A stretch of DNA of 48,068 nt from Rhodospirillaceae bacterium (GCA_016794165.1 JAEUKV010000291.1:1-48068); one strand, 5' to 3'; positions 2,701 to 33,144 are shown, counted from the stretch's first letter. Made by a program: numbers and translations. The notes: a model not told the origin generated them from the letters alone.

Positions 2701-4548
2701 ATGCCGGCGGCAGCGATGAGTGAGGCGACTCGCGACGAATCCCTGGATCGCTGGCGCCTGCCGCTGTCATCGGAACCGCAAACGCGGGACGGGCGAAGGT
2801 CCGAGCCGGCCATGAAGAGCGGATTCTGGCGGCGACACGGCAAGCCGCCGGAAGACGTCACGGTTGCGTCGAAGACAGCCGACCCGCGCCGCACCAAAGA
2901 GGAACCGGCGGTCGTTGAAAAGGAGCGCGCCAAGCGTCTCCCGGCCTCGCGCCGCAGCCTGTGGCAATCGCCGCTCACGCGGCGCATCCTCGCCCTCAAC
3001 ATCATGGCGCTGCTGGTGCCGGTGCTGGGCCTGCTCTACCTGCCGACCTACCGCGACAGCCTGCTGCAATCCGAGCTTGAACTGCTGAAGACCGAAGGCA
3101 AGCTGTTCTCCGGGGCGCTGGCGGCGAGCGGCGTCGTCACCGGGCCGCTGGGCGACGAAAAGCTGCTGCCGGAAACTTCGCGCCAGACCATCCGCCGCCT
3201 GGTCGACGTTTCCAAGACCCGCGCGCGCCTGTTCACCCCGGACGGGACCCTGATCGCCGACAGCTTCCTGCTGTCTGGCCCGGGCGGGATCGTTACGATC
3301 ACGCCGCTGCCGCCGCTCGAACCCGAGCAGAGCCTGGTGTGGCGCTGGATATCGGGCGCCTACGACTGGGTCTTCAACCGCCTGCCGAGCAGCCGCGTCC
3401 TGGCACCCTACCAGGAATCGGCCGTGCAGAACGCGGCCGACTACCACGAGGTCGTCAAGGCCCTGGCGGGCGAGGCGACAACCGATGTGCGCGATGCGGG
3501 CAAGGGCAAGATGATCCTCTCCGCCGCCGTTCCGGTGCAGCGCTATCGCCAGGTGCTGGGTTCCCTGCTGTTGACCAAGTCCGGCGACGACATCGAGAAC
3601 ACCCTGCGCGATACGCGCCTGACCATCATCGGCGTGTCCGGCGTCGCCCTTGGCATCACTGTGCTGCTCTCGCTCTATCTGGCCAGCACCATCGCGCTGC
3701 CGATCCATCGCCTTGCCGACGCTGCCGACCGCGTGCGCCGGGCGAAGGGGCGCCAGCAGAAGATACCGGACCTGTCCAGCCGCGGCGACGAGATCGGCGA
3801 TCTCTCCGGTGCGCTGCGCGACATGACCGAGGCGGTCTGGCGCCGCATGGATGCGATCGAAGGCTTTGCCGCCGATGTCGCCCACGAGATCAAGAACCCA
3901 CTCACCTCGCTCAGAAGCGCGGTGGAAACCGTGGCGCGAGTCGAGGACCCGCAACAGCAGAAAAAACTGATGGGCATCATCCTCGACGACGTGCAGCGTC
4001 TCGACCGGCTGATCAGCGATATCTCCGATGCCTCGCGGGTCGATGCCGAGATGTCGCGCGCCGAAGCGGGACCGGTCGACATGCGCGCCTTGGTGCTCGC
4101 CCTCGCCGATATCCATGCCGCCACCGGTGATGAAAACGACCAGCGTCCGCGCATCGAGACGAAGCTGCCGGCCAGTGATTCGCTGACGGCCATGGGCACC
4201 GAGGGCCGGCTGGGGCAGGTGTTGCGCAACCTTGTCACCAACGCCATCTCCTTCAGCCCGCCCAATGGAACGATTATTCTCTCCGCCCGCCGCACCCCGC
4301 GCCGGATCATCGTTACGGTCGAAGACCAGGGCCCGGGGATACCGCCCGACAAGCTCAAGGCAATCTTCGAACGTTTCTATTCGGAACGGCCGAGGGGCGA
4401 GAAGTTTGGGACGCATTCGGGGCTGGGTCTTTCCATTTCGAAGCAGATCGTCGAAGCCTATGGCGGCACGTTGAGCGCCGAGAACCGTACCGATGCCGAC
4501 GGCAGGATCGTCGGCGCGCGTTTCATTGTCGATCTGGCAAGGGCCTGA
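2701..4548 (+). CDS. chvG: Sensor histidine kinase ChvG
   Basis: ChvG is an inner-membrane sensor kinase that phosphorylates ChvI. The protein has 615 residues from ATG 2701 (ATG 2716 is an alternative). It has a roughly 90-residue polar cytoplasmic extension, membrane helix 1 at about 97-114, a periplasmic sensor to about 305, helix 2 at about 307-330 and a HAMP domain. The HisKA domain carries H395 in DVAHEIKNPLTSL. The ATPase domain has the N-box (LRNLVTNAISFSP), DQGPGIP and GLGLSISKQIV. The basic, Pro/Glu-rich N-terminal extension is longer than I expect for the family. The hprK start follows 4 bases after the stop, as in other alphaproteobacteria. Confidence 0.95.
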   Translation: MPAAAMSEATRDESLDRWRLPLSSEPQTRDGRRSEPAMKSGFWRRHGKPPEDVTVASKTADPRRTKEEPAVVEKERAKRLPASRRSLWQSPLTRRILALNIMALLVPVLGLLYLPTYRDSLLQSELELLKTEGKLFSGALAASGVVTGPLGDEKLLPETSRQTIRRLVDVSKTRARLFTPDGTLIADSFLLSGPGGIVTITPLPPLEPEQSLVWRWISGAYDWVFNRLPSSRVLAPYQESAVQNAADYHEVVKALAGEATTDVRDAGKGKMILSAAVPVQRYRQVLGSLLLTKSGDDIENTLRDTRLTIIGVSGVALGITVLLSLYLASTIALPIHRLADAADRVRRAKGRQQKIPDLSSRGDEIGDLSGALRDMTEAVWRRMDAIEGFAADVAHEIKNPLTSLRSAVETVARVEDPQQQKKLMGIILDDVQRLDRLISDISDASRVDAEMSRAEAGPVDMRALVLALADIHAATGDENDQRPRIETKLPASDSLTAMGTEGRLGQVLRNLVTNAISFSPPNGTIILSARRTPRRIIVTVEDQGPGIPPDKLKAIFERFYSERPRGEKFGTHSGLGLSISKQIVEAYGGTLSAENRTDADGRIVGARFIVDLARA

Positions 4549-4552
4549 GCAA

Positions 4553-5017
4553 ATGTCGGAGCCGGCGCGCATCCGGATCGATGGGGTGGCTGTGGCGATC
4601 GGGGAAGTGGCGGTCCTCCTGCGCGGCCCTTCGGGCAGCGGTCGCTCGGACCTCGCCCTGCGCCTGATCGACGAAGGCGCCCGCCTGATCAGCGACGAGC
4701 AGGTGGAACTGGAGCGGCGCGATCGGCGGCTGTTCGCGACGGTTCCCCAGGGGATGCCGGGAGATCTGGTCGGCCGGATCGAGGCGCGCGGTATCGGCAT
4801 TGTCCCGGTGCCGCATGTGCCCACCCCCCTGCCGCTGTCCTGGGTCATCGATCTGCGACCGCGACAGGAAATCGAGCGCCTGCCGGCGGCCCGCGATGTC
4901 GACTATCTCGGCATATCGGTGCCGGCCCTTGTCCTTGACCCGTTTGCTGCCTCGGCAACGAGCAAACTGCGTCTTGCGGTCAAATGCGGCCCGGACCTAA
5001 TAATGGGCCGCACATGA
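4553..5017 (+). CDS. hprK: HPr kinase/phosphorylase, short alphaproteobacterial form
   Basis: HprK phosphorylates or dephosphorylates the regulatory serine of HPr. This 154-residue form lacks the N-terminal domain of Firmicute HprK, as is usual in alphaproteobacteria. The P-loop at residues 25-32 reads GPSGSGRS, so position 31, normally the nucleotide-binding Lys, is Arg (codon CGC). The next segment, DLALRLIDEGARLISDEQ, matches the family, as do the later GRIEARGIGIV and LVIDLRP-like segments. The gene lies between chvG and rapZ and is part of the same run. Either Arg is tolerated here or kinase activity is reduced; the sequence cannot decide. Confidence 0.92.
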   Translation: MSEPARIRIDGVAVAIGEVAVLLRGPSGSGRSDLALRLIDEGARLISDEQVELERRDRRLFATVPQGMPGDLVGRIEARGIGIVPVPHVPTPLPLSWVIDLRPRQEIERLPAARDVDYLGISVPALVLDPFAASATSKLRLAVKCGPDLIMGRT

Positions 5018-5036
5018 CGCCGGGCGGGAAAACCCC

Positions 5037-5999
5037 ATGACCACGACAGACGCCGCCAGCAGGGAATCGAAGCCTGACGCCGCGACCATGGTGATGGATC
5101 GCAGGCATGTGCTGCTGGTCACCGGCATGGCCGGCGCCGGACGCTCCACCGCGCTGAAGTGCCTGGAAGACATCGGCTATGAGGCGGTCGACAACCTCCC
5201 GCTCGATCTGTTGCCGGTGTTGCTCGCGGGACTGGGCCAGGCGGCAATGCCCGATATGGCAAAACCGCTCGCCTTCGGCATCGACTCGCGCACGACCGGT
5301 TTTTCCAGCGACAGCTTCGCGTCCCTGGTGCACCAGCTGCGCGGCGATCCGGCTTTCAGGGTCAATCTGCTGTTCCTCGATTGCGAAGACGACGTGTTGC
5401 AGCGGCGCTTCACCGAAACGCGGCGGCGTCATCCCCTGGCGCAGGATCGGCCGGTGGTCGATGGGATCCATCGCGAGCGCATCCTGATGGGGGCGGTGCG
5501 TGACGAGGCGGATCTGTTGATCGACACCACCGATACGGCGATCGGCGATCTCAAGTCGCTGCTGATCGGCCATTTCGGTCCCGGCGCACAGGCGGACCTG
5601 GCCCTGACCATTGTTTCGTTTTCCTATCGCCACGGACTGCCGCGCGAAGCGGATTTGGTTTTCGATGTTCGGTTTCTCGATAATCCACACTACAATCAAG
5701 AGCTTAGGCCACTTACCGGCGAACATGACGCGGTTGGCAAGGCGATCGCCTCCGACCCGGCTTTCCCCGGTTTCTTTGCTGCGCTGACTTCCCTATTGTG
5801 GCCGCTCTTGCCGGGATTCGAGGCCGAGGGAAAGAGCTATCTGACCATTGCCGTCGGGTGTACCGGCGGACGGCACCGGTCGGTGTTCGTTGCCGGCAAG
5901 CTGGCCGCCTGGCTGAGCGAGAAGGGCCGCACGGTGACGCTGCGGCATCGGGATCTCTCGCGCGATGTTGCGCGAACCACGGCGGACGCGACGAGATGA
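5037..5999 (+). CDS. rapZ: RNase adapter / nucleotide-binding protein RapZ
   Basis: RapZ proteins bind nucleotides and, in enterobacteria, guide RNase E to the GlmZ small RNA; the role in alphaproteobacteria is less clear. The 320 residues include a P-loop near residue 27 reading GMAGAGRST, again with Arg at the Lys position. ALKCLEDIGYEAVDNLPLDLL follows, and the C-terminal signature GCTGGRHRSVFVAGKLA is intact. The first 20 residues are a poorly conserved extension. The gene starts 19 bases after hprK and precedes the PTS genes, an arrangement that suggests a shared role in carbon or cell-wall signalling. Confidence 0.94.
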   Translation: MTTTDAASRESKPDAATMVMDRRHVLLVTGMAGAGRSTALKCLEDIGYEAVDNLPLDLLPVLLAGLGQAAMPDMAKPLAFGIDSRTTGFSSDSFASLVHQLRGDPAFRVNLLFLDCEDDVLQRRFTETRRRHPLAQDRPVVDGIHRERILMGAVRDEADLLIDTTDTAIGDLKSLLIGHFGPGAQADLALTIVSFSYRHGLPREADLVFDVRFLDNPHYNQELRPLTGEHDAVGKAIASDPAFPGFFAALTSLLWPLLPGFEAEGKSYLTIAVGCTGGRHRSVFVAGKLAAWLSEKGRTVTLRHRDLSRDVARTTADATR

Positions 6000-6743: not shown

Positions 6744-8612
<1,869 letters not shown>

Positions 8613-11375: not shown

Positions 11376-11402
11376 CGAAGACGGCCAACCGGTGCCAATT
11401 GC

Positions 11403-11431
11403 TTGTCACCGGAATCGCACACCCGTACATT
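11403..11431 (+). promoter_or_regulatory. divL promoter, with GANTC sites nearby
   Basis: TTGTCA (11403-11408), a 17-base spacer and TACATT (11426-11431) end 8 bases before the ATG at 11440, so the transcript is probably leaderless or nearly so. GAATC (11412-11416) in the spacer and GACTC (11446-11450) just inside the gene both match GANTC, the CcrM methylation site of alphaproteobacteria. This allows, but does not show, cell-cycle-dependent control. Confidence 0.6.
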
Positions 11432-11439
11432 GTTTCCCC

Positions 11440-13893
11440 ATGGGGGACTCGGGATATCCAAGGTTGACGCGACACCACCGACCCGGCCGCAACGCTTCGG
11501 TCGTTGCGGCGTCGGTCGGATTCGCCCTGGCGCCGATGTCGGCAGCCTTCGCACAGGGTTCAATACCCAGCGACGGGGCGACTTCCGGCATCCTGGGCAT
11601 CGGCCTGGCGATCGCCCTGGCCGTGGCTGCCCTCGCGGCCTTCAAAGCCCGGCAGTGGCACAAGGCCAGTGATGCCCTGCGATCCGCGCTTGAGGGGGAA
11701 AGCTTCGCGCGCCAGGCTGCCGAGGCGACCCTCGCCAGCGAAAAAGCAATCTGGTCGACCGCGCCGGTCGGGCATGTCGCCTGGTTGGCGGGCAATCCAA
11801 TCGCGGCCGACGACAAGGCACGCAACGCGCTGCAGCTGACAGAGGCTGCTCTGATGCCGGTGGATCTGGCCGGTCGGGCGCATGCCGATGATCGCCAGGC
11901 CCTGCAGGACGCCCTCCGCGATCTGGACCGGGACGGGCATGCCTTCGTCCTGTTGCCACGGCCCGCCGAGGGCATGCCGCGGATGCGCTGGATCGGGCGG
12001 GTCGGCGCTGATGGCAGACGACACCTGTGGCTGAGCGAAGTGGACGATATTCTGGCCCCGATCGAACAGGCCAGCCAGCACGCCATGGCGACCGCGGCCT
12101 CTCTGGGGCAGCTGCTCGATCAACTGCCCTATCCGGTCTGGCGCCGCGGCACCGACCTTGCCATCGCCTGGTGCAATCTCGCCTTCGCCAACATCTACGA
12201 CATGCCGGTCGAGCGGATCATCGGCGAGCGGCGCGAAATCAACGCCGCGGCCAAGGCGCTGGCGCAGCGTGCCCAGCGCGTCGGCCTAGCTCAGTCCGAG
12301 AGCCAGCAGCTGGTCGTCAAGGGCCAGCGGCGGCTCTACGACCTCACCGAGGTGCCGCTGCCGGACGGGTCGGTGATCGGCTTTGCCCTGGACCAGACCC
12401 AGCTTGAAGAAAGCCATGCCGAGCTCACCCGGCATCTTGCCGCCCATGACGATGTGCTGCAGGCGCTATCCACCGGTATCGTCATTTTCGGGCCGGACCG
12501 CCGGGTCAAGTTTTTCAATTCCGCCTTCCGCGAGCTGTTCACGCTGGACGCGCATTTCCTGCGCCAGGAGCCGAACGTCGATCAGGTTCTCGACAAGCTG
12601 CGCGAACGGCGCCAGATTCCGGAGCAAGCCGACTTCCGCTCGTTCAAGAAGGAGTGGAGCCGCCATGTGATGTCGGTGATCGAGCCGTTCGAGGATTTGA
12701 TGCATGTCCCGAGCGGTGCCACCTATCGCATGATGGCGGCACCCCATCCCTTCGGCGGCGTCATCCTGACATTCGAGGATGTGACCGACAACCTGACGCT
12801 CGAGCGCAACTACAACACCCTCATCGAAGTACAGAAGGAAACCATCGATCATCTTTATGAAGGCATCGCCGTCTTCGGCAGCGACGGTCGCCTGAAGCTG
12901 CACAATCCCGCCTTCGAGCGCCTGTGGAACCTGCCGGCCGACAGCCTGGAAGGTGAGCCGCATGTGACGCAGATCGCGGATGCGGTAAAGCCGTTCTTTG
13001 AAGGGCGGCCCAACTGGCTGGACCTGCGCCACCGGATCATCACCGAGGTCGCAGAGCGCGAGCTGAAGAACATCCGCCTGGAGCGAGTCGATGGCAAGAT
13101 TGTCGACATCGCCGCCATTCCGCTGGCCGATGGCGGCCGGCTGTTCAAATACACCGACGTCACTGACAGCATCAACATGGAACGGGCGCTGACCGAACGC
13201 AACGAAGCGCTGATGGCAGCCGACCGGCTGAAGTCGGAGTTCATCGCCAACGTCTCCTATGAGTTCCGTACGCCCCTCAATGCCATCATCGGTTATGCCG
13301 AGTTGTTGGCACGGCAGTACTTCGGCGACATGAACGAGCGGCAACTCGAATACGCTTCCGCCATTCTCGATTCTGCACAAAACCTTATCCTGATGATCGG
13401 CGACGTTATTGACGTGGCGGCAATCGAAGCCGGTTACATCCAGCTCGAACCCGTCGCGGTCGATATCAGGCAGCTGGTGGAATCCATCTCGCGCCTGTTC
13501 CAGCAGCGCGCCCGCAGCCGCAATATCGACCTGGTCCTTGAAGTGCCCGCCGACATCGGCACGCTTCAGGCGGACCCACAACGGCTGAAGCAGGCGCTGG
13601 GCAATCTGCTGAGTGCCGCCATCGGCGCGGCGCCGGGCGGGCGCACGGTCGTGGTGAGCGTCAGACGCCACGTGGAAAATCTGGAAGTGTGCGTTGCCGT
13701 GCGCGGCGCGCCGGACGATTTCGGCCTCGATGTCGGCCCCGATTCAGATTCCGCCCAGGCTCGCAGTTCGACTCGCGGCCTTGGCGTCGCCCTAGCCCGC
13801 ACCCTGATCGAATTGCATGGCGGCAGCCTGCAAACGGAAAGCGGCGCCATGGGCCGCCGCATCGTCTGCCTCCTGCCGATCACTGCGGCCTAG
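11440..13893 (+). CDS. divL: DivL-type cell-cycle pseudokinase (Tyr in the H-box)
   Basis: In Caulobacter, DivL modulates the CckA-CtrA cell-cycle phosphorelay by binding DivK. The protein has 817 residues from ATG 11440, chosen because it follows a promoter; an in-frame ATG at 11392 lies upstream of that promoter. There are two N-terminal hydrophobic segments (about 10-34 and 47-69), then several PAS-like repeats (about 230-580) and a dimerisation helix. The H-box reads [18 protein letters not shown]: Tyr607 replaces the phospho-His, the DivL hallmark. The ATPase domain is degenerate: the N-box Asn is Ala (NLLSAAI) and no DxGxG motif is seen, although GLGVALARTLIELHGG remains. The position between ahcY and tsaE supports orthology. 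Confidence 0.9.
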   Translation: MGDSGYPRLTRHHRPGRNASVVAASVGFALAPMSAAFAQGSIPSDGATSGILGIGLAIALAVAALAAFKARQWHKASDALRSALEGESFARQAAEATLASEKAIWSTAPVGHVAWLAGNPIAADDKARNALQLTEAALMPVDLAGRAHADDRQALQDALRDLDRDGHAFVLLPRPAEGMPRMRWIGRVGADGRRHLWLSEVDDILAPIEQASQHAMATAASLGQLLDQLPYPVWRRGTDLAIAWCNLAFANIYDMPVERIIGERREINAAAKALAQRAQRVGLAQSESQQLVVKGQRRLYDLTEVPLPDGSVIGFALDQTQLEESHAELTRHLAAHDDVLQALSTGIVIFGPDRRVKFFNSAFRELFTLDAHFLRQEPNVDQVLDKLRERRQIPEQADFRSFKKEWSRHVMSVIEPFEDLMHVPSGATYRMMAAPHPFGGVILTFEDVTDNLTLERNYNTLIEVQKETIDHLYEGIAVFGSDGRLKLHNPAFERLWNLPADSLEGEPHVTQIADAVKPFFEGRPNWLDLRHRIITEVAERELKNIRLERVDGKIVDIAAIPLADGGRLFKYTDVTDSINMERALTERNEALMAADRLKSEFIANVSYEFRTPLNAIIGYAELLARQYFGDMNERQLEYASAILDSAQNLILMIGDVIDVAAIEAGYIQLEPVAVDIRQLVESISRLFQQRARSRNIDLVLEVPADIGTLQADPQRLKQALGNLLSAAIGAAPGGRTVVVSVRRHVENLEVCVAVRGAPDDFGLDVGPDSDSAQARSSTRGLGVALARTLIELHGGSLQTESGAMGRRIVCLLPITAA

Positions 13894-13914: not shown

Positions 13915-14472
13915 TCAGAGCTCTGATACGTGGCCGAGGATCGAATCCAGAGTGGCAATCAGGCCCGGTCGCGTTACCGTCGACTTTGTAAGGTAGCCAC
14001 TGATGTCGTAGCGCTGTCGAACCTTGGATTCGGGCGCGCGGCCAGGCTGGCCAGTATGCAAAAGAACCGGCAGGCGCTGGGTGCCGGGATCGGCGCGAAT
14101 GTCGTCGAGAAGATTGAGCCCGGCACCCGACGTTTCCATGACGACATCGAGCAGCACAAGATCAACCGGTGCGTGGCGATCGATCAATCGTGCCCGGGCC
14201 GCCGCGGCCGAATCGCAGTGGCTGATGGCGAGGCTGCGACCGCGAATGACGACCCCGGAAAGGGCCAGGTCCATGGCTCGGTGCACCTCGGGATCGTCGT
14301 CAACGATCAACAATCGCCAATCCCGTTCCTTGCGTTGGTCGGAAGCAGCCGCCAGGTCATCCTCGTCAAGCTCAAGCAGATCGTCGTCCCCGAGGGACTG
14401 GAGACGCAGGACGATCCAGCTGCAATTGCCCTCGGTCGCTAGGCTGGTCGGTGATGGCGGGTGGGTGGTCAT
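13915..14472 (-). CDS. Single-domain response regulator, DUF3369-type receiver
   Basis: From ATG 14472 (chosen over GTG 14475 because of AGGAAG seven bases upstream) the protein has about 185 residues. An N-terminal stretch of about 50 residues contains an acidic run (DDDLLELDEDDLAA). A receiver domain follows: IVDDDPEVHRAMD, phospho-acceptor Asp in LLDVVMETSGAGL, LLHTGQPGRAPE and GYLTKS. The unusual HTGQPGRAPE stretch is characteristic of receivers found with DUF3369. There is no output domain, so it probably works as a phosphate shuttle or sink for the adjacent kinase. The gene starts 13 bases past the kinase stop. Confidence 0.85.
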   Translation of the reverse strand: MTTHPPSPTSLATEGNCSWIVLRLQSLGDDDLLELDEDDLAAASDQRKERDWRLLIVDDDPEVHRAMDLALSGVVIRGRSLAISHCDSAAAARARLIDRHAPVDLVLLDVVMETSGAGLNLLDDIRADPGTQRLPVLLHTGQPGRAPESKVRQRYDISGYLTKSTVTRPGLIATLDSILGHVSEL

Positions 14473-14485
14473 CACAGCTTCCTGG

Positions 14486-17400
14486 TCACGACTCGTTGAT
14501 GGATGACAGGGGTGCGGTTCGCGGCAACTGAATGCTGAACGTTGTGCCCTTGCCGATCTCGCTGGTCACGGCAATCGAGCCGCCGAGTATATCCGCTACA
14601 AGGTTGTGGACGATGTGCAATCCGAGGCCGCTGCCGCCCTGACCCAGCCTTGAGGTAAAGAACGGGTCGAATATGCGCCCCAGAACGGTGGCCGGAATTC
14701 CCGCGCCGTTGTCGGCAACTTCCAGGCAAACGCGAGTCCCGTCGACCTGCGCGGCGCTGATCCTGATAGTGCCGGACTTGTCCGCTTTGAAGGCGTGCAG
14801 CAGGCAGTTGTTGATCAGGTTCGTCAGGATCTGTCCCAGCGGCCCGGGATAGGAGTCCAATGTGATTGCGGCATCGACCGAGATGTCAACCTTGACGCCG
14901 CTGCGCTTGAGGCTGGGGTGCATCGTGGTCACGATCTCGTCGACGATTTCCGTCAACTGGAATTGACGCCGCTGCGAACTGGTCTGATCCACGGCGACCT
15001 GCTTGAAACTCTGGATCAGCCCCGCGACGCGCTCAATGTTGCGATTCGCGATGTCAGTCCCCAGCTTGACCTGCCTGATGAAGGCGTCCAGGGCCGTGCG
15101 GGTGAGCTTGTCCCTGGCAAGATTCTCGAATTCATCGATACTGGCGATCATGGTCGAGGTGGCGAGGCTGGCGTTTCCGACCGGTGTGCTGATTTCGTGG
15201 GCGACACCGGCCACCAGGCTGCCCAGCGAGGCCAGTTTCTCGGCCCGCATCAGGTTTTCCATGGCGGATTTGAGTTCCGCCGTCCGCTCCGTGACCAGAC
15301 GTTCCAGTTCGTCGTTGAGTTGCTTCTGCGCAGCCTCGGCGGCACGGCGCAGCGTGATGTCCTCGACCGTCGACCAGACATACCGGGCACCGTCCGAGCC
15401 GGTGATCATGGAACCATTGAGGCTGACGGCGATGCGTGTGCCGTCCTTGCGAACATACTCTTTCTCATAGGGGCCGTACCTGCCGGTCGTGGCGAGTATC
15501 TCGACATGCCGCTGGTCCTGATCGGCATATTCCGGCGCGGTGAGCTTGCGATAATTGAGGTCGGGAAGCTCGTTCGGTTCGTAGCCGGTGATGCGCAGGA
15601 ACGCCTGGTTGACCTCAAGAAACTGCCCATCGACGGTGGTGAGGGTGACGCCAAGCGGTGCCGTCTCGAACAGCGAACGCAGCTTCTCCTCACTGGAGCG
15701 CAGCAGTTGCTGCGCTTCGATCTGGTCGGTCATGTCGTCCTGGACACCGAGGACACCCTTGACTTCGCCGGACCGAGTAACGATCGGTACCTTGCTGAGC
15801 TTCATCCAGCGTCTCTGCCCGGACCCGTCCAGGAACGGTACGACGTCATCGATCACAGGAGTAAGTGTTGTGGTAACCTGCCGGTCCATGGCGATAAACG
15901 CTGCAGCCTGATCCTGCCAGACCAGATCAAGGTCCGACTTGCCGACAATGGCGGCGGGATCGTCGACGCCCGCATCGATGGCGAAATTCCGGTTGCTCCC
16001 GAGATAGACGGAGTTGAGATCCTTCCAGAAGACGCGGGATGGAATTGAATCCAGGACCGTCTGCAGCATCTGTTCGGATTCGTGCGCGGCCTCGATCGCC
16101 AGTCTGAGATCGGTGACGTCGTGCACGACGGACAGAATCAATGCTTCTCCATCCATGGTGAAGCTGCGCGCCCACATCGCGCAGTGGCGAACGGAGCCCC
16201 CGCGCTGGTTGATGCGGATTGGCATGGAAACGATCTCACCAGAATTTTTGATCGCGTCGATCATGGCCAATCGCTCGGTAAGGTCGTGCCAGATGTCGAG
16301 GTCGATCGTCGTGTGCCAAAGGGCATCAGATCGTTTGATGCCGGTGATCTTCTCGAAGCCGGGATTGGCTTCCATTATCCGCCCGTCGGCAAGCGACGTG
16401 AGGAGAATGGCATCAGGCGACTGAAGCAGGATGCGGCTGGATATCTCCTCCAACTTGCGCAACCGCTTCGACATGGTTTTGCGTTCGGTGACATCCGAGG
16501 CGATGCCGAGAAAGCCGCTGATGCTGCCATCCGGGGCCTTGATGGCCGTCACAGACAGCAGTACCGGGAAGGTCGTGCCGTCTTTGCGAATATAGGTCCA
16601 TTCCTTTTCACTGGACTTGTCGTACCGAGCCTCGGCAACGAAAACTTCGAAGCCTGGAGAGATGTCGTGTTCAAACTCGCCGCTGAGCCATTCTGCGCGC
16701 TCTGCAACCTCCTGCGAGTCGTGAAAGATGGCGGGGGTCTGTTTGCCGACTAGCTCGATGGAGGTATAGCCGAGCATCCGCTCGGCAGCCCGATTAAAAA
16801 AGGTAATGACGCCTTCTGCTGTCGTTGCGATGACCGCATAGGCGGCATTACCGAGAATCGCCGCCTGCAGCGATGATGTCTCCTTGGCGGCTTTCTCCGC
16901 CAGTCTCTGTTCGGTGATGTTGAGCAGCACCCCGTCGAACCGCCGGCTGCCGTCGGCCCCAAGCGTGGCACGACCGCGATCCTGAATCCAGACATCGCGT
17001 CCATCGGCATGGCGCAGACGATAGTCCAGGGTGTACTCCTGTCCGGCAGGGATCGCGCCCAATGCTCCTTCGACCGTCTCGCGGTCTTCCGGATGGATGA
17101 GATCGCTCCAGCGAAGGGCGGCGGGGCCGACCAGAACGGCCGGCGGATGGCCGATGAGCGGCTCGATGCCGGAAGACAGATAGCTCACGATCCCCCCGGT
17201 GCCGGACTGGCGCTGATAGACCGCGCCGGGGATATTGTCCGTCAATAGCCGGAGTCGATCCTCCGACAGCCGCAGGGCATCTTCCGACCGGCGGCGCTGC
17301 TGATTGACATAGGTGAGCGCGAGATAGCTGCAGACGCCCCGCGCCAGCGCCATCTCCGGCTCCTGCCAGGGTGTACTACCCTCGCAACGTTCCATGCTGA

Positions 17401-17842
17401 AGACGCCAACGTCCTCGCCGGAGGCCCGAATGGCGTGATCCAGCGTGGCGGCGATTCCATTCGGGGCCAGATAGGAATCGCGAATGTCGGCAAGGCGGGG
17501 ATCGTTGAGCGCGTCGGCGGAGTTGAGCAGCGGTGCCTCGCGCAGTGCGGCGAATTCGCCAGCCACCTGGGCCGCGGGAATGGTTGCCGGGGCGCAACGG
17601 CGCATGGTTCTCGTATCCAGCCGCGCGATGCTTCGCAGGCAGGATCGCTCGCTGTCGAACAGCCAGACGCCAACGTAATCCATGCGCGCGAGGCCCGCAG
17701 TGCGCGCGACCACGAACTCGGCGATGGTGTCGAAATCGCCTTCCTGAACGGCCGGGTGCCGCGACAACTCCCCAAGGAAGGAGACAGTCTCCGCCGAAAC
17801 CTGCGGCACCGAAGGGGTCTCGTGCTGTTTCTTGGCGCGCAT
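14486..17842 (-). CDS. Soluble GAF/multi-PAS sensor histidine kinase
   Basis: The 1118-residue protein starts at ATG 17842, 8 bases after the upstream kinase gene ends. An open frame continues upstream, but it overlaps that gene and reads as Arg/Pro-rich nonsense. The order is a GAF domain (about 20-175), five PAS/PAC units (about 190-820, marked by motifs such as [30 protein letters not shown] and [11 protein letters not shown]), a coiled coil, and a kinase core. H882 lies in [13 protein letters not shown], with [20 protein letters not shown] and [14 protein letters not shown]. There is no transmembrane segment, so it senses a cytoplasmic signal. All catalytic boxes look intact. Confidence 0.9.
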
Positions 17843-17850
17843 TGCCCGGG

Positions 17851-19179
17851 CTACGCCGGATGGCGCGGAAGGATGAGAGAAACCGTCGACCCGCCGCCGT
17901 CTCGATCGTCGACGGCGAGGCGACCGCCCATCATCGTCATCAATTGACGGCAGATGGTCAGGCCAAGGCCCAGGCCGCTCGCATCCTTGGTGAGGACGTC
18001 CTGGCCGATCGAGAACGGTTCGTCGAGGTTGCTGCGGATGGATTTGGGAATGCCGGGGCCACGATCGCTCACGGAGATTGTGATGTGCTGGTCCAGAAGC
18101 TGCCAATTGACGTCGATATCCTTGCCCTTGGGAGAATAGCGCAGGGCATTGGCAATTGTGTGGCCGAGTACTTTCGTCAGGGCGCTGCGATCGAGATCGC
18201 ATTGGTAGCTGCGGTCGCCCGGCCCGACGCGGATCTGCAAGCCGAGACGCCTTGCGTCACTGGCGTAGAGTTCCTGCTGATACTCGATCAGTTCCTGAAT
18301 GCCGGTGGGCTCGCAGACCAGGCGCCGCTTCCGCGTGTCCAACTGGCTGAAGTCGAGAATGTCGTCGACGACCGATGCCAGCCTGCGGCCGGCATCCAGC
18401 ACGTCCTGGAGGTAGGTGGCGGGCACGGGTTTGCCGTCTTCCACTGCCCGCAGCGACAGCTCGCTGAAGCCGATGATGGCATTCAGGGGCGTGCGCAATT
18501 CGTGGCTGACATTGGCGAGAAACCGGGATTTGGCCTGCGCCGCGGACATGGCTGCCTCGCGCTGTTCGAGATAGTCGACATTGAGGATCTCGAGTTCCCG
18601 TGCCATCGCCTCCCGGCGTTCATTGGCTTCCTGCAACTGGCGCAGGCGGTCATAGGCGCGCAGGGCCGTCGCCACGGAAGTAAACAGGCGCGCCCGCGAC
18701 AGTTCCGACTTGGTCCGGTAGTCATCGATGTCGTAGTCGCGGATGACATCGCGTTCCGGGGCATAGCCGGGATGCCCGGTGCGCAGGATGATGCGCGGAA
18801 TGGTGAGGTGGAGGGTATCGCGGATCATGCGCACGAGGCGCAGGCCGGCATCGTCGGATTCCATCACGACGTCGAGCAGGATCACCGCGACCTGATTTGG
18901 CTGCGAGAGAATGCCCTCGGCCTCCGCGGCGGAATAGGCGTGCTGGAAGTGAAACCCGCGGCCCTCGAAGGTCTCGGAGCCGAGGGCAAATTCCGTCGCT
19001 ACATGCACATCGCGATCGTCGTCGACCACGAGGATTTGCCACGGCCCGGATTCATCCGAGCCATGCCGTTCCGCCACTGTCTCCGGTCCCTCGGAGAAAA
19101 TCTGGATAGCCCCACTCAATGCCGAGTCCTGTGTTGCTGAAAATTTTCCTATTATTTTCAGGCGCTTCGGACTCAACAT
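17851..19179 (-). CDS. Receiver-histidine kinase hybrid (REC-HisKA-ATPase)
   Basis: The 442-residue protein places a receiver first (about 48-170) and a kinase second. The receiver is of the DUF3369-associated type: [16 protein letters not shown], phospho-Asp in [26 protein letters not shown] and DYRTKSEL. A coiled coil links it to HisKA with H226 in [19 protein letters not shown]. The ATPase carries the Asn box ([11 protein letters not shown]), DRGPGIP and [12 protein letters not shown]. The receiver is clearly related to the lone receiver two genes downstream. Phosphorylation of the receiver probably tunes the kinase. No membrane segment is present. I see no good ribosome site before ATG 19179. 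Confidence 0.9.
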
Positions 19180-19271
19180 GGCAAAAGAGTGTTAACGCAA
19201 TCTGAATACCATACATGCGTTGTGGTTATGCAGGCGTTAGCTCGGATGGCAGGGGGAATCGCCGCTGACAG

Positions 19272-20288
19272 CTAGCTGCCCGGCACGCCCTTCGAGGTCG
19301 AGTATTCGAAGTGCAGGGCCTCGCCCGGATGCAGCAGGGGATGCGCGGCGTGAGCCGCCATGGCCGCTTCCGAGAAGCCGCACAGGATCAGTTTCAGTTT
19401 CCCGGGATAGGTCGCGATGTCGCCAATGGCAAAGATGCCGGGGACATTGGTGGCACAGTTGCGCGGGTCGATGGCGATATGGTTGCGCTCCAGGTTGAGG
19501 CCCCAGGCGGCGATCGGCCCGAGATCCATGGCAAGGCCGAAGAAGGGCAGCAGGATGTCCGCCTCCAGCCGCCGGATGTCGCCCTCCAGGGTGGCGACAT
19601 TGACGGCCGCGAGCTGGCCATTGGCGCCCTCCAGGGAATGCAGTTGATAGGGCACCACCAGTTCGACCTTGTCGGTCTTGGCAAGGGCCTCCATGCGAGC
19701 GACCGATTCCGGCGCGCCGCGGAATTTCGGACGTCGGTGGATGACGTAGATCTTCTCGGCGAGTTCGGCGAGCGAGATGGTCCAGTCGAGCGCGGAATCG
19801 CCGCCGCCGGCGATGACGATCCGCTTGCCGCGGAAATCCTCGCGGCGCTTGACCAGATAGAACACGCTCTTGCCTTCGTACTCCGCCAGATGATCGAGCG
19901 GCGGGCGGTTGGGTCCGAACGCGCCACAGCCGGCGGCGATAATGACGACGCGGGCATCGATCCGGGTGCCGGCATTGGTTTCCACCAGCCAGCGCTCCCC
20001 TTGCGGCGTCAGCCGGTCCACCTGCTGGCCCAGATGATAGGTGGGATGGAAGGGTGCCGCCTGTTCCTCGAGCTTGTGGATCAGCTGGGCGGCGTCGATG
20101 CTGGGATAGCCCGGAATGTCATAGATCGGCTTTTCCGGATACATGGCGACGCATTGCCCGCCGGTGGATTCCAGGGCGTCGACGACATGGCAGCGCATCT
20201 TCAGCATGCCGCATTCAAACACCGCGAACAGGCCAACCGGCCCGGCACCGATGATCACCACATCCGTCTGTTGAATGGCGCCGCTCAT
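19272..20288 (-). CDS. TrxR-like ferredoxin/flavodoxin-NADP+ reductase
   Basis: This enzyme moves electrons between NADPH and ferredoxin or flavodoxin. From ATG 20288, which follows GGGGAGGATCGC, it has 338 residues. An FAD site (VVIIGAGPVGLFAVFECGML) and GGQCVAMYPEKPIYDIPGYP are followed by an NADPH site (IVIAGGGDSALDW) and GIFAIGDIATYPGKLKLILCGFSEAAMAAH. There is no CxxC redox pair, which separates it from true thioredoxin reductases. It is divergent from tsaE and lies 92 bases upstream of the kinase cluster on the same strand. Confidence 0.87.
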   Translation of the reverse strand: MSGAIQQTDVVIIGAGPVGLFAVFECGMLKMRCHVVDALESTGGQCVAMYPEKPIYDIPGYPSIDAAQLIHKLEEQAAPFHPTYHLGQQVDRLTPQGERWLVETNAGTRIDARVVIIAAGCGAFGPNRPPLDHLAEYEGKSVFYLVKRREDFRGKRIVIAGGGDSALDWTISLAELAEKIYVIHRRPKFRGAPESVARMEALAKTDKVELVVPYQLHSLEGANGQLAAVNVATLEGDIRRLEADILLPFFGLAMDLGPIAAWGLNLERNHIAIDPRNCATNVPGIFAIGDIATYPGKLKLILCGFSEAAMAAHAAHPLLHPGEALHFEYSTSKGVPGS

Positions 20289-20400
20289 GCGATCCTCCCC
20301 GAGATTCCGGAGCATCCTTTAGCATATTGTAATCATGGGGCAAATGTGACGCTGCGATGAACATTGCGGCGAGGTCGCAGGACCGCTACAAACCGGCGCC

Positions 20401-20934
20401 ATGAAGCCAGTTTCAGCACAGATTCTCCTGGAATGCGACCTCGCCGGTGAGGCGCGAACCCGTCTGGTGGCGCGCCAGATCGCAGCAGAGGCCCGACCTG
20501 GCGACGTGCTGGCGCTTTGGGGCGATCTCGGCGCCGGCAAGACCACCTTCGCGCGCGGGTTTATCGGCGCGCTTGCCGGGGATGACGAACCGGTGCCCAG
20601 CCCTACCTTCACCCTGGTGCAAACCTACCAGGTTACCCTGGGCGGCGAGGCGGCCGAGATCTGGCATTTCGACCTCTATCGCCTCAAGCAGGCGGATGAG
20701 GCCTATGAACTCGGCATCGAGGACGCTTTCGCCGCCGGCATCTCGCTGATCGAATGGCCGGAGCGCCTCGGCAACCTCTTGCCACGGGACCGTCTGGACG
20801 TGACTCTGTCGCTGGGGAGCGCTGCCGATTCGCGCCATCTGGTGCTGGCTGGCGGGGCAAATTGGACGGAGCGCGTGGCGCGGATCAGGGCCGTGCTGCT
20901 TGGGGGAAAGGCCGGGGGGACAGGGCTGACATGA
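20401..20934 (+). CDS. tsaE: tRNA t6A-synthesis ATPase TsaE
   Basis: TsaE supplies the ATPase step in making threonylcarbamoyladenosine at position 37 of ANN-decoding tRNAs, with TsaB and TsaD. The 177-residue protein has a P-loop at G41-T48 (GDLGAGKT), the PSPTFTLVQTY segment, WHFDLYRL and the C-terminal SLIEWPERLG. Its stop overlaps the next start by ATGA. A third of the protein after the P-loop is conserved; the extreme C-terminus is variable, as usual. Confidence 0.96.
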   Translation: MKPVSAQILLECDLAGEARTRLVARQIAAEARPGDVLALWGDLGAGKTTFARGFIGALAGDDEPVPSPTFTLVQTYQVTLGGEAAEIWHFDLYRLKQADEAYELGIEDAFAAGISLIEWPERLGNLLPRDRLDVTLSLGSAADSRHLVLAGGANWTERVARIRAVLLGGKAGGTGLT

Positions 20935-29833: not shown

Positions 29834-29970
29834 CCGCGATTCCCAGCTAGTCGGTTCATGGCCCCGCCCGGCATCGCCGCGGCGGGGTTTCCTTTTGCCG
29901 GCTTGCCGCTTGCCTGCCGATGGCGCAAGCTGTCGGCACGAATGATGCGCGGTGGAGCGATGAGCCGATC

Positions 29971-32900
29971 ATGCGCTGTTCCATTTGTGCGGCAGAAAAC
30001 AAGGCTGAACGACAATTCTGCGCCGCTTGCGGCGCGGCTTTGCCACTGGCTTGTCCGGTTTGCGGCTTTGCCAATGACCACGACGACGCCTATTGTGGCG
30101 GCTGCGGACGCGATCTAGGCCGCAGGAAGCCGGCAGAGGCGGCAAGTGCGGAGCGCCGGCCGGTGAGCGTGATGTTCGCTGACCTGGTTGGTTATACAGC
30201 CCTGGCGCAGCGGATCGATCCGGAGGAGATGCACGGGCTGCTGGCGCGCTTCTTCGAGATTGCCGACGAGATCATCCTGCAATTCGGTGGGCGCGTCGAC
30301 AAGCATATTGGCGACAATGTCATGGCGCTGTTCGGCGCGCCGATCGCTCATGGTGACGATCCGGAACGCGCCGTAGGTGCCGCCCATGCGCTTCATCAGG
30401 TGATGCCGGAATTGTCCGCGGAGGCCGGGCGCAATCTGTCGGTTCATATCGGCATTGCGGTTGGTGACGTGCTGGCGAGCGGTCTGGGAAGCGCCGTTCA
30501 CAGCACGTATACGGTCGTCGGGCCGGCGGTCAATCTGGCAGCTCGGCTAATGGAGCGCGCAGGACCGGGCGAGACACTCGTCTCGGAGGAAGTCGCTCGG
30601 CATGTCGGGCAGAGCTTCGAGATCGTGCAACTCGGCGAGCAGGCGATCAAGGGTCTGGCGGCGCCTGCTCCGATTTTTCGGGCGGGCGCACCTCTGAGCG
30701 ACAGCCATCGGCATCGCCGGCCGATCATTGGGCGGCGCAGTGAATGCGCCCAGATCGACGCTCTCTTGGCAACCTGCCGGGACGAGGGTGTCGGTGCCTC
30801 GCTGGTGGTCCGCGGTGTTCCCGGAATCGGCAAGTCACGACTGGCGGAAGAAGCGGTGCAGCGGGCCCGAGGCAGCGGTTTCCACTGCTTCGTCTTGCGT
30901 ATCCTCGATTTTGGCACCGGCGCCATCCGCGACCCGCATCGACAACTGGCGCTGGCTCTCGCCAGCGTGGTCGGCGAATCTGACTATCTTGATCCGCTGC
31001 AGCGGGCCATGCTGGCGTCGCTAGTCGATCGCCCGCTGCTGCCAGAGGAAGCCCGGCATCTGGAGGCCATGAGTCATGCCGCCCGGCAGGGCGTAAGGGC
31101 CAACGCCCTGGCCCAGATGCTAGCTGATGCGGCCGCCCGGCAGCCGACGCTGATGGTGATCGAGGATATCCACTGGGCGGACGACAGTTTTCTGCTGACC
31201 CTGGCGTCTCTCGCCGATCGAGTCGCCGGTTCGCGTGCCATGTTGCTGATGACCACGCGCGTCGATCCGGATCCGATCGACGCAACATGGCGCGCCAGTC
31301 TCCGCAGCGGCCGAGTCATCTCGATCGATCTCACGCCACTCTCGTCGACGGAAGCACTCGAAATGTCGACACAGATTGCCATCGACATCGACCCGTTCGT
31401 TCATCGGTGCGTGGCGCGCGCGGAAGGGAATCCGCTGTTCCTCGAGCAGCTGCTGCGCCACCGCCAGAGCGGCGAAGGCGGCGTCCTGCCAGACTCGCTG
31501 CAGAACGTCGTCCTTGCCCGCCTCGATCAGTTGCCGGAGGGCGAGCGGACGGCTTTGCAGGCGGCCTCGATTCTGGGCCAACAATTCAGCGGCGAGGATC
31601 TGGCGCGGTTGCTGGGGCACCCCGGCTTCGATGGCGCGGCCATGGTGCGCCGGCAATTGCTGCGCCCGACGCCCGGGGGCTACCTATTTGCTCACGCCCT
31701 CATCCATAGCGGTATCTACTCGGCCTTGACCCGCGAGCACCGTCGTCAGTTGCATCGCAAGGCGGCCGAACTGTTTGCCGAGCGCGATCCCGTTCTTTTT
31801 GCCGAGCATCTCGATCGCGCTGAATCGGATGCGGCGGTTGACGCCTATCGTCGGGCGGCCCGGCATGAAGCGTCGCTCTATCATCTCGACCGGGCAGCGC
31901 AGCTGGCGGCGCGTGGCCTGACTCTGGCCCGGACTCCGCTAGAACGTTGTCGCCTCGGCCTGGAAGCCGGCCGACGCTTTCTTGACATCGGCGATCCGCT
32001 GGCCGCTCGCGCGGCCTTCGAGCGCGCCCTGGAGGCCGAGCCGGAACCGCTCGATCGCAGCCGGACACTCGTCGGCCTGGCTGCCTGTCATCGGCAGTTG
32101 GGCGACATCGACCTGGCCATGAACCATCTCTTGGCGGCAGAACCGCTCGCCGATGCCGAAGACGAACCGGCCTTGTTGGCCGAGATCAGCTATCTGCGCG
32201 GCAATCTAAATTTCGCGCTGGGCAGGGCGGATGAGTGTTTGGCTGCCCATGGTGCAGCCCTTGCTGCTGCGCGCCAGGCCGGTGAGGCGGAGTGGTTGGC
32301 ACGGGCAGAGAGCGGCCTTGGCGATGCCTACTACTTGCAGGGTCGCTATGCCCTGGCACAACGCCATTTCATCAACGCGGTCGATGCGGCCGAAAGTGCC
32401 GGTCTGCTGCGCATCGTGCCCGCCAATCGCGGCATGATCGGCAACTGCCACGTCTTCTACGGCCGGTTCGACCTCGGGCTGGAGGATGTGGCAGCAGCGT
32501 GTGCCGCGGCAACCCAGATCGGTGATCGCTTTGGCGAGATGTTCGGGCTCGAATGCAGGGCGTTCATCCTGATGACGGCTCGTCGCTGGCCGGAGGCCGA
32601 GACACCGGCGCGCGAGGCCATGGAGCTGGCGGCAGAGATCGGGGCGCGGCGCTACGAATCCATTACTGCTACGATCCTGGCGATGAGCTTGCTGGCGGCC
32701 GGAAGAAACGCGGAGGCAGAAGCCCTGTCGCGCCGAGCCGTGGTGCTAGCGGAAGAGACCGGCATCGGCTTTGCCGGAGCGTTGATTCTCGCGGTACGCG
32801 CCATCATTCTGGGGATAGGAGCGGAGGCGCGCGCAGCGATTGAGCGCGGCGAGGTCCTGTTGCGTCAGACCGGCATGGCACACAATCACATCTTCTTTCG

Positions 32901-33144
32901 TGCGTTCGCAATCGACTGGGCGATCATTGCTGATGATTGGGCCTTGCTGGATCGCTTTGCTGGCGGCCTCGCACAGTTTACCGCCGCCGAACCGTTACCC
33001 TATGTCGAGATCGTCATCGAGCGGGCGCGCCTGCTGGCGCGCCTGCAGCGGAATCCAGGCGACGTGTCCGCGCGGCGAGATCTCATGCTCCTGGCCGCAG
33101 ATGCGAGACGGATAGATTTCCGGCTCGCCTTTCCAGAAGCTTGA
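29971..33144 (+). CDS. Zinc-ribbon class III cyclase with ATPase and TPR-like repeats
   Basis: The 1057-residue protein has four parts. Two zinc ribbons open it (C3, C6, C17, C20 and C28, C31, C42, C45). A class III nucleotide cyclase domain follows (about 62-240) with metal ligands D71 (FADLVGYT) and D115 (HIGDNVMALFG), then VGPAVNLAARLM. A signal-transduction ATPase has its P-loop at G282-S289 (GVPGIGKS) and LMVIEDIHWADD. The last 450 residues are helical repeats of TPR type. Such proteins are thought to make cAMP under control of the ATPase and repeats; the signal is unknown. ATG 29971 was chosen because the ribbon begins there. It lies between trxA and folC and meets folC stop to stop. 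Confidence 0.88.
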   Translation: MRCSICAAENKAERQFCAACGAALPLACPVCGFANDHDDAYCGGCGRDLGRRKPAEAASAERRPVSVMFADLVGYTALAQRIDPEEMHGLLARFFEIADEIILQFGGRVDKHIGDNVMALFGAPIAHGDDPERAVGAAHALHQVMPELSAEAGRNLSVHIGIAVGDVLASGLGSAVHSTYTVVGPAVNLAARLMERAGPGETLVSEEVARHVGQSFEIVQLGEQAIKGLAAPAPIFRAGAPLSDSHRHRRPIIGRRSECAQIDALLATCRDEGVGASLVVRGVPGIGKSRLAEEAVQRARGSGFHCFVLRILDFGTGAIRDPHRQLALALASVVGESDYLDPLQRAMLASLVDRPLLPEEARHLEAMSHAARQGVRANALAQMLADAAARQPTLMVIEDIHWADDSFLLTLASLADRVAGSRAMLLMTTRVDPDPIDATWRASLRSGRVISIDLTPLSSTEALEMSTQIAIDIDPFVHRCVARAEGNPLFLEQLLRHRQSGEGGVLPDSLQNVVLARLDQLPEGERTALQAASILGQQFSGEDLARLLGHPGFDGAAMVRRQLLRPTPGGYLFAHALIHSGIYSALTREHRRQLHRKAAELFAERDPVLFAEHLDRAESDAAVDAYRRAARHEASLYHLDRAAQLAARGLTLARTPLERCRLGLEAGRRFLDIGDPLAARAAFERALEAEPEPLDRSRTLVGLAACHRQLGDIDLAMNHLLAAEPLADAEDEPALLAEISYLRGNLNFALGRADECLAAHGAALAAARQAGEAEWLARAESGLGDAYYLQGRYALAQRHFINAVDAAESAGLLRIVPANRGMIGNCHVFYGRFDLGLEDVAAACAAATQIGDRFGEMFGLECRAFILMTARRWPEAETPAREAMELAAEIGARRYESITATILAMSLLAAGRNAEAEALSRRAVVLAEETGIGFAGALILAVRAIILGIGAEARAAIERGEVLLRQTGMAHNHIFFRAFAIDWAIIADDWALLDRFAGGLAQFTAAEPLPYVEIVIERARLLARLQRNPGDVSARRDLMLLAADARRIDFRLAFPEA

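Follow-up and report, generated by a model that had tools for sequence, protein, structure and literature searches.

Three minus-strand genes in a 48,068-nucleotide stretch of DNA from a Rhodospirillaceae bacterium (GCA_016794165.1, JAEUKV010000291.1:1-48068; hereafter the window) form a real and conserved cluster that very probably encodes a soluble phosphorelay of known architecture and is probably functional. The products of this cluster, referred to as the trio, are a sensor histidine kinase with GAF and five PAS domains, a second kinase that carries its own receiver domain (Rec-HK) and a lone receiver, and the cluster lies beside divL, which encodes a cell-cycle kinase. Our preferred reading, held with moderate confidence, is that the trio constitutes a branched relay in which the GAF/PAS kinase phosphorylates both the receiver of Rec-HK and the lone receiver, and that the position next to divL is coincidental.

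All three open reading frames are intact in the window and are transcribed in the order Rec-HK, GAF/PAS kinase, lone receiver, with intergenic spacings of 8 and 13 bases (Table 1). The start of the Rec-HK gene was moved from an ATG at 19179 to a TTG at 19119. The ATG falls within a conserved upstream element but is not itself conserved; the TTG is kept in six species and, judging from their comparison, is probably the genuine start. The start of the GAF/PAS kinase gene (ATG, 17842) agrees with the onset of similarity to the orthologue in a congener (G005). The catalytic Asp, Thr, Lys and His residues and the ATP-binding motifs are all present in the window. In the lone receiver, the phosphoacceptor Asp109 together with Thr140 and Lys163 is invariant in six species, and Rec-HK displays intact receiver motifs (DDD, LLDVVME, RTG and K) as well as SHELRTP and the N, G1 and G2 boxes. 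The congeners keep these motifs with two exceptions, namely the Rec-HK frame of G003, which is truncated, and an ATP-lid motif of G005, which deviates from the strict pattern. All three genes are under purifying selection (ratio of nonsynonymous to synonymous substitution rates 0.06-0.37, with synonymous sites near saturation). A domain search retrieved no DNA-binding or enzymatic output domain in the trio proteins, and no membrane span is apparent in any of them, the maximum 19-residue mean hydropathy being 1.2-1.4 versus 2.5 for DivL. A preliminary description of the window had posited a tight minus-strand cluster of a receiver-kinase, a GAF/five-PAS kinase and a lone receiver, all soluble and lacking outputs of their own, and on each of these points it is borne out by the reading frames, domains and hydropathy.

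Both trio receivers bear the motif TG[QH]PGxAPE, the signature of receivers fused to DUF3369, and neither protein has a match to the DUF3369 family itself (PF11849). The same description had assigned both to this receiver type without an HD-GYP output, which motif and domain searches confirm, but had also called the type rare, whereas it is common: the class was found in 28 of 289 genomes of the same taxonomic class, and the motif occurs in 76 of 79 named related loci from Proteobacteria, Cyanobacteria and other groups. At E<=1e-22, the only two receivers of the class detected in the genome are those of the trio, and they are the nearest relatives of each other there (39% identity, E 4e-22; next best receiver E 4e-5). 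Derivation of the lone receiver by duplication of the Rec-HK receiver is not favored, as a FastTree tree places it together with two lone receivers from Burkholderiales, with modest local support (0.86). Most relatives of the trio receivers are REC-DUF3369 proteins ending in GGDEF/EAL or HD-GYP domains (REC, receiver), with some REC-DUF3369-HisKA proteins, REC-kinases devoid of DUF3369 and fusions to a winged helix-turn-helix. This prevalence of covalently attached cyclic di-GMP enzymes, along with the frequent occurrence of DUF3369 on alphaproteobacterial HD-GYP proteins (PMC9756655), could be taken to mean that the trio receivers bind unlinked GGDEF, EAL or HD-GYP proteins in place of the usual fused outputs and thereby control cyclic di-GMP. 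We regard this as very unlikely: the cluster contains no such enzyme, and the HisKA and winged helix-turn-helix fusions in the same receiver class indicate that the output is not always cyclic di-GMP.

The assignment of the middle kinase as phosphodonor is based on its association with this receiver class. Its core belongs to a class with the H-box HE(I/V)(N/S)TP(V/L)G, of which it is the single member detected in its own genome. Kinases of the class were retrieved from 24 of the 289 genomes (E<=1e-50), and all 24 are among the 28 genomes that possess the receiver class (hypergeometric p ~3e-31, or ~4e-27 when the genus is left out, both uncorrected for phylogeny). Furthermore, 26 of 58 receivers of the class lie within 6 kb of a kinase of the middle-gene class. 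Adjacent kinase/receiver pairs were read in four other genomes of the taxonomic class, one of which has two pairs, and the associated outputs are EAL, GGDEF-EAL, HD-GYP or HisKA. Pairs of a kinase with a Rec-HK, in turn, are present on named plasmids of Azoarcus, Chelatococcus and Nostoc, on one Nitrospirae contig and in four genomes of an Undibacterium-centred family set. The Nitrospirae locus (L211) was considered as a full trio and rejected, the receiver of its third gene being of another class. Since the receiver class tracks the kinase class and is often encoded next to it, the most likely phosphodonor of both trio receivers is the middle kinase, insofar as such genomic association can tell.

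A linear relay resembling CheA3-CheS3-CheY3 was weighed against this branched scheme. Here the PAS kinase would control Rec-HK through its receiver, and Rec-HK would in turn phosphorylate the lone receiver, an end point that binds an unlinked target. The same logic has been shown in Rhodospirillum centenum (PMC3868531), the three genes form one tight cluster, and no other cognate partner is encoded near the lone receiver. We consider the linear relay unlikely, however, because the lone receiver is of the DUF3369-associated class, whose distribution follows that of the PAS-kinase type, and because in an Undibacterium genome (G303) a PAS kinase of the middle-gene class adjoins a lone receiver of this receiver class without any Rec-HK, an arrangement that speaks for the PAS kinase as donor.

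One of the plasmid loci offers a separate observation. On the Chelatococcus plasmid pTAD1 (L267, 7968-12372), a Rec-HK of the receiver class adjoins nitrous-oxide reductase (nos) genes, and the same locus contains an OmpR-type regulator and a HAMP kinase of the middle-gene kinase class. The nos neighborhood is a possible clue to the signals perceived by related relays.

Structure prediction is consistent with control of Rec-HK by its receiver. In an AlphaFold2 monomer model (mean pLDDT 84, pTM 0.60, 23 sequences), the last receiver helix, the linker and the first DHp helix form one unbroken helix (142-225), and the linker blocks mostly score pLDDT 82-91. Foldseek placed the six chains of LvrB (8vc9) at ranks 1-6, each matched over the full length (411-414 columns, E ~1e-19 to 1e-18). 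VIA-align retrieved many histidine kinases, including Caulobacter DivL (4q20), at Z ~19-23, a level that mirrors the kinase core they share. In LvrB, phosphorylation of the receiver by LvrA leads to formation of a helical coiled coil and release of the catalytic domain, and the kinase is activated (PMC13269768). In R. centenum, by comparison, phosphorylation of the CheS3 receiver by CheA3 turns the CheS3 kinase off (PMC3868531). With one precedent switched on and the other off, the switch in Rec-HK could have either sign.

The branched relay would thus operate as follows. The GAF/PAS kinase, as its domains imply, would sense a cytoplasmic signal and autophosphorylate at the H-box His. Being presumably cognate to DUF3369-type receivers, as co-occurrence and adjacency suggest, it would then phosphorylate the receiver of Rec-HK and the lone receiver. 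Phosphorylation of the former may alter the coupling helix and switch the HisKA core, by analogy with the LvrB precedent and the model, after which Rec-HK would phosphorylate a response regulator encoded elsewhere. In the least certain step, the lone receiver may act as a phosphate sink or feedback element, or may carry the signal to an unlinked partner, as reported for PhcQ.

Several observations weigh against this scheme. The counts behind the kinase/receiver co-occurrence are phylogenetically non-independent. Rigid-body superposition of the Rec-HK model on LvrB is poor (TM 0.33-0.35, root-mean-square deviation 26 A) because the domains are placed differently, so that the match is one of domains and their order. 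The lone receiver could instead take its phosphate from Rec-HK, in the way that CheS3 serves CheY3, or from some other kinase. Finally, Rec-HK may be broken in one congener (G003), or the draft assembly may be wrong at that site. The cluster of G003 is spread over two contigs, and its locus (L055) has a TAA stop within the Rec-HK receiver.

Conservation was assessed in 17 genomes of the order, all from one family (seven species of the genus and ten other genomes). The trio is kept in six of the seven species, each time in the same order and place between divL and the gene for a ferredoxin/thioredoxin-reductase-like flavoprotein (FNR), and is absent from all ten other genomes. An absence of the trio from relatives had been named beforehand as one finding that would refute the proposed relay, and its retention in six species shows the reverse. 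The remaining congener (G004) possesses divL but no trio, and its DivL is 57% identical to that of the window versus ~75% for the other congeners; the absence suggests that the trio was gained within the genus. The sensor kinase has been reshaped among congeners: the window and G005 share PAS1-5, G002 is devoid of PAS1, and G001 and G006 are without PAS1 and have two PAS4-like domains. Such remodeling of the PAS array with a fixed kinase core suggests changing input signals, as far as domain composition can indicate.

The preliminary description had stated that the cluster breaks a conserved divL-tsaE order. The trio does adjoin divL, but the trio-less family members have the order divL-FNR-tsaE, so that FNR separated divL from tsaE earlier than the trio did. 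In other genera, the divL-FNR slot holds other, unrelated sequence (gaps of 0.7 to >7 kb in five or six genomes), and these differing contents mark the insertion site as permissive. Among the fillings seen in other genera of the family (L077, L078, L079, L082 and L085) is a DUF1993 gene in G009. The trio was probably inserted into the divL/FNR intergenic slot without a role in the DivL pathway.

An alternative is that the insertion beside divL is functional and that the relay feeds the cell-cycle network, with Rec-HK phosphorylating DivK or binding DivL or CckA. Its place beside divL is fixed in all trio-bearing species, the DHp alpha-1 motif is present in Rec-HK, and the Rec-HK kinase core resembles that of Caulobacter DivL. 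Yet the alpha-1 motif and the core resemblance are common to ~25 paralogous kinases of the genome, and the second helix departs from the DIxxSGxxLLxLINDILD pattern found in most of them; the two helices were inspected for the specificity residues of DivK-binding kinases (DivJ/PleC/PdhS). DivL itself, in which Tyr replaces the phosphoacceptor His (SYEFRTPL), is encoded by a single-copy gene conserved in the ten trio-less family genomes and in the trio-less congener. Moreover, the trio and divL are convergent and hence share no promoter, and the element upstream of Rec-HK is not a full CtrA box, having one TTAA half-site and, within the element, no second one that could be found. We therefore judge a functional link at this locus to be highly improbable, and likewise the stronger form, in which Rec-HK, gated by a cytoplasmic signal through the PAS kinase, phosphorylates or sequesters DivK or binds DivL or CckA, so that the relay would give the cell-cycle circuit of this genus an additional input of its own at divL. 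Modulation of DivL by the trio had been suggested earlier from adjacency, and adjacency is all that speaks for it. The location beside divL is probably coincidental.

The upstream element, TTAAC-N3-CTTTTGCCA, lies within the 152 bases that separate FNR from Rec-HK (window 19120-19271; orthologous gaps L052-L057) and has a single exact match in its own genome. A wider regulon was considered and dismissed, as matches within two mismatches number 5 versus 11 for a reversed-pattern control, which is the level of chance.

Table 1. Positions of the trio, its upstream element and neighboring genes in the window (aa, amino acids)
Feature	Position	Strand	Remarks
Upstream element TTAAC-N3-CTTTTGCCA	19179..19195	-	In all six trio-bearing species; putative promoter or operator
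Rec-HK, 422 aa from TTG	17851..19119	-	Receiver (~18706-19035), linker helix, HisKA (18334-18534), HATPase (~17863-18192)
Sensor histidine kinase, 1118 aa	14486..17842	-	GAF (~17315-17737), five PAS (~15317-17230), kinase core (~14489-15280)
Lone receiver, 185 aa	13915..14472	-	PF00072 match; acidic N-terminal extension and one DUF3369-type receiver domain (~13978-14310)
divL	11392..13893	+	Context; convergent neighbor of the trio
FNR	19272..20315	-	Context; ferredoxin/thioredoxin-reductase-like flavoprotein, ancestral neighbor on the other side
tsaE	20401..20934	+	Context

Elsewhere in the window, a Sensor_TM1/Stimulus_sens_1 histidine kinase gene, a RapZ-like gene and a gene of the phosphotransferase system (PTS) enzyme I type are located upstream of ahcY-divL (2701-5999 and 6744-8612). 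We take this region to resemble the ChvG/PTS-Ntr neighborhood of alphaproteobacteria. A large protein combining a zinc ribbon, an adenylate/guanylate cyclase domain, an AAA ATPase and TPR repeats is encoded at 29920-33144.

The trio provides a compact, apparently self-contained soluble set with which to examine how one kinase splits its phosphate between a receiver-controlled kinase and a free receiver. The cluster further illustrates how receivers of a common class, which mostly carry fused cyclic di-GMP enzymes, have been rewired repeatedly to kinases, with DUF3369 dropped.

Among known systems, LvrA-LvrB of Leptospira supplies the best full-length structural match. LvrB, the prototype of receiver-controlled histidine kinases, has, like Rec-HK, an N-terminal receiver joined via a coupling helix to a DHp/CA core, and its receiver is phosphorylated by an upstream kinase, as proposed for the trio. 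The two proteins are 16-18% identical over the whole chain, LvrC has no counterpart in the trio, and the trio adds a lone receiver. The gene set as a whole matches PhcS-PhcR-PhcQ of the Ralstonia phcBSRQ operon, which encodes the sensor kinase PhcS, the soluble receiver-kinase PhcR without a DNA-binding domain, and PhcQ, a soluble receiver-only protein whose receiver is like that of PhcR (PMC8578825, PMC6989110, PMC11960443). Compared by description only, both sets join a kinase, a Rec-HK and a lone receiver with mutually similar receivers. The Phc system differs in its linked PhcB-type methyltransferase, whereas the trio is flanked by divL, ahcY, FNR and tsaE with no phcB methyltransferase beside it and has a soluble GAF/PAS sensor. 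PF12147, tried as a guess for PhcB, matched only unrelated proteins of ~600 aa. With LvrA-LvrB (PMC13269768) and the PhcS-PhcR-PhcQ gene set (PMC8578825, PMC6989110) on record, and with the kinase/Rec-HK pair recurring on the Azoarcus, Chelatococcus and Nostoc plasmids, the suggestion that the relay is undescribed is not supported.

Other systems share single features. REC-DUF3369-(EAL/GGDEF/HD-GYP/HisKA) regulators and their adjacent kinases belong to the same receiver subfamily and kinase-core class but possess the DUF3369 domain and enzymatic outputs, both of which the trio lacks. In CheA3-CheS3-CheY3, one kinase passes phosphate to the receiver of another, and the cascade ends in a single-domain receiver (PMC3868531), but the system relies on a chemotaxis-type CheA kinase and receptors, of which the trio has none. 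The alphaproteobacterial proteins Osp, LovR and MrrA are stand-alone receivers that function as sinks or hubs or inhibit kinases directly (PMC9430884, PMC5964349); they resemble the lone receiver in this respect, while their gene neighbors differ and the trio receiver is of the DUF3369-associated subfamily. The trio is accordingly placed with relays of the Rec-HK kind rather than with the Phc systems, and is a genus-specific example of a known arrangement.

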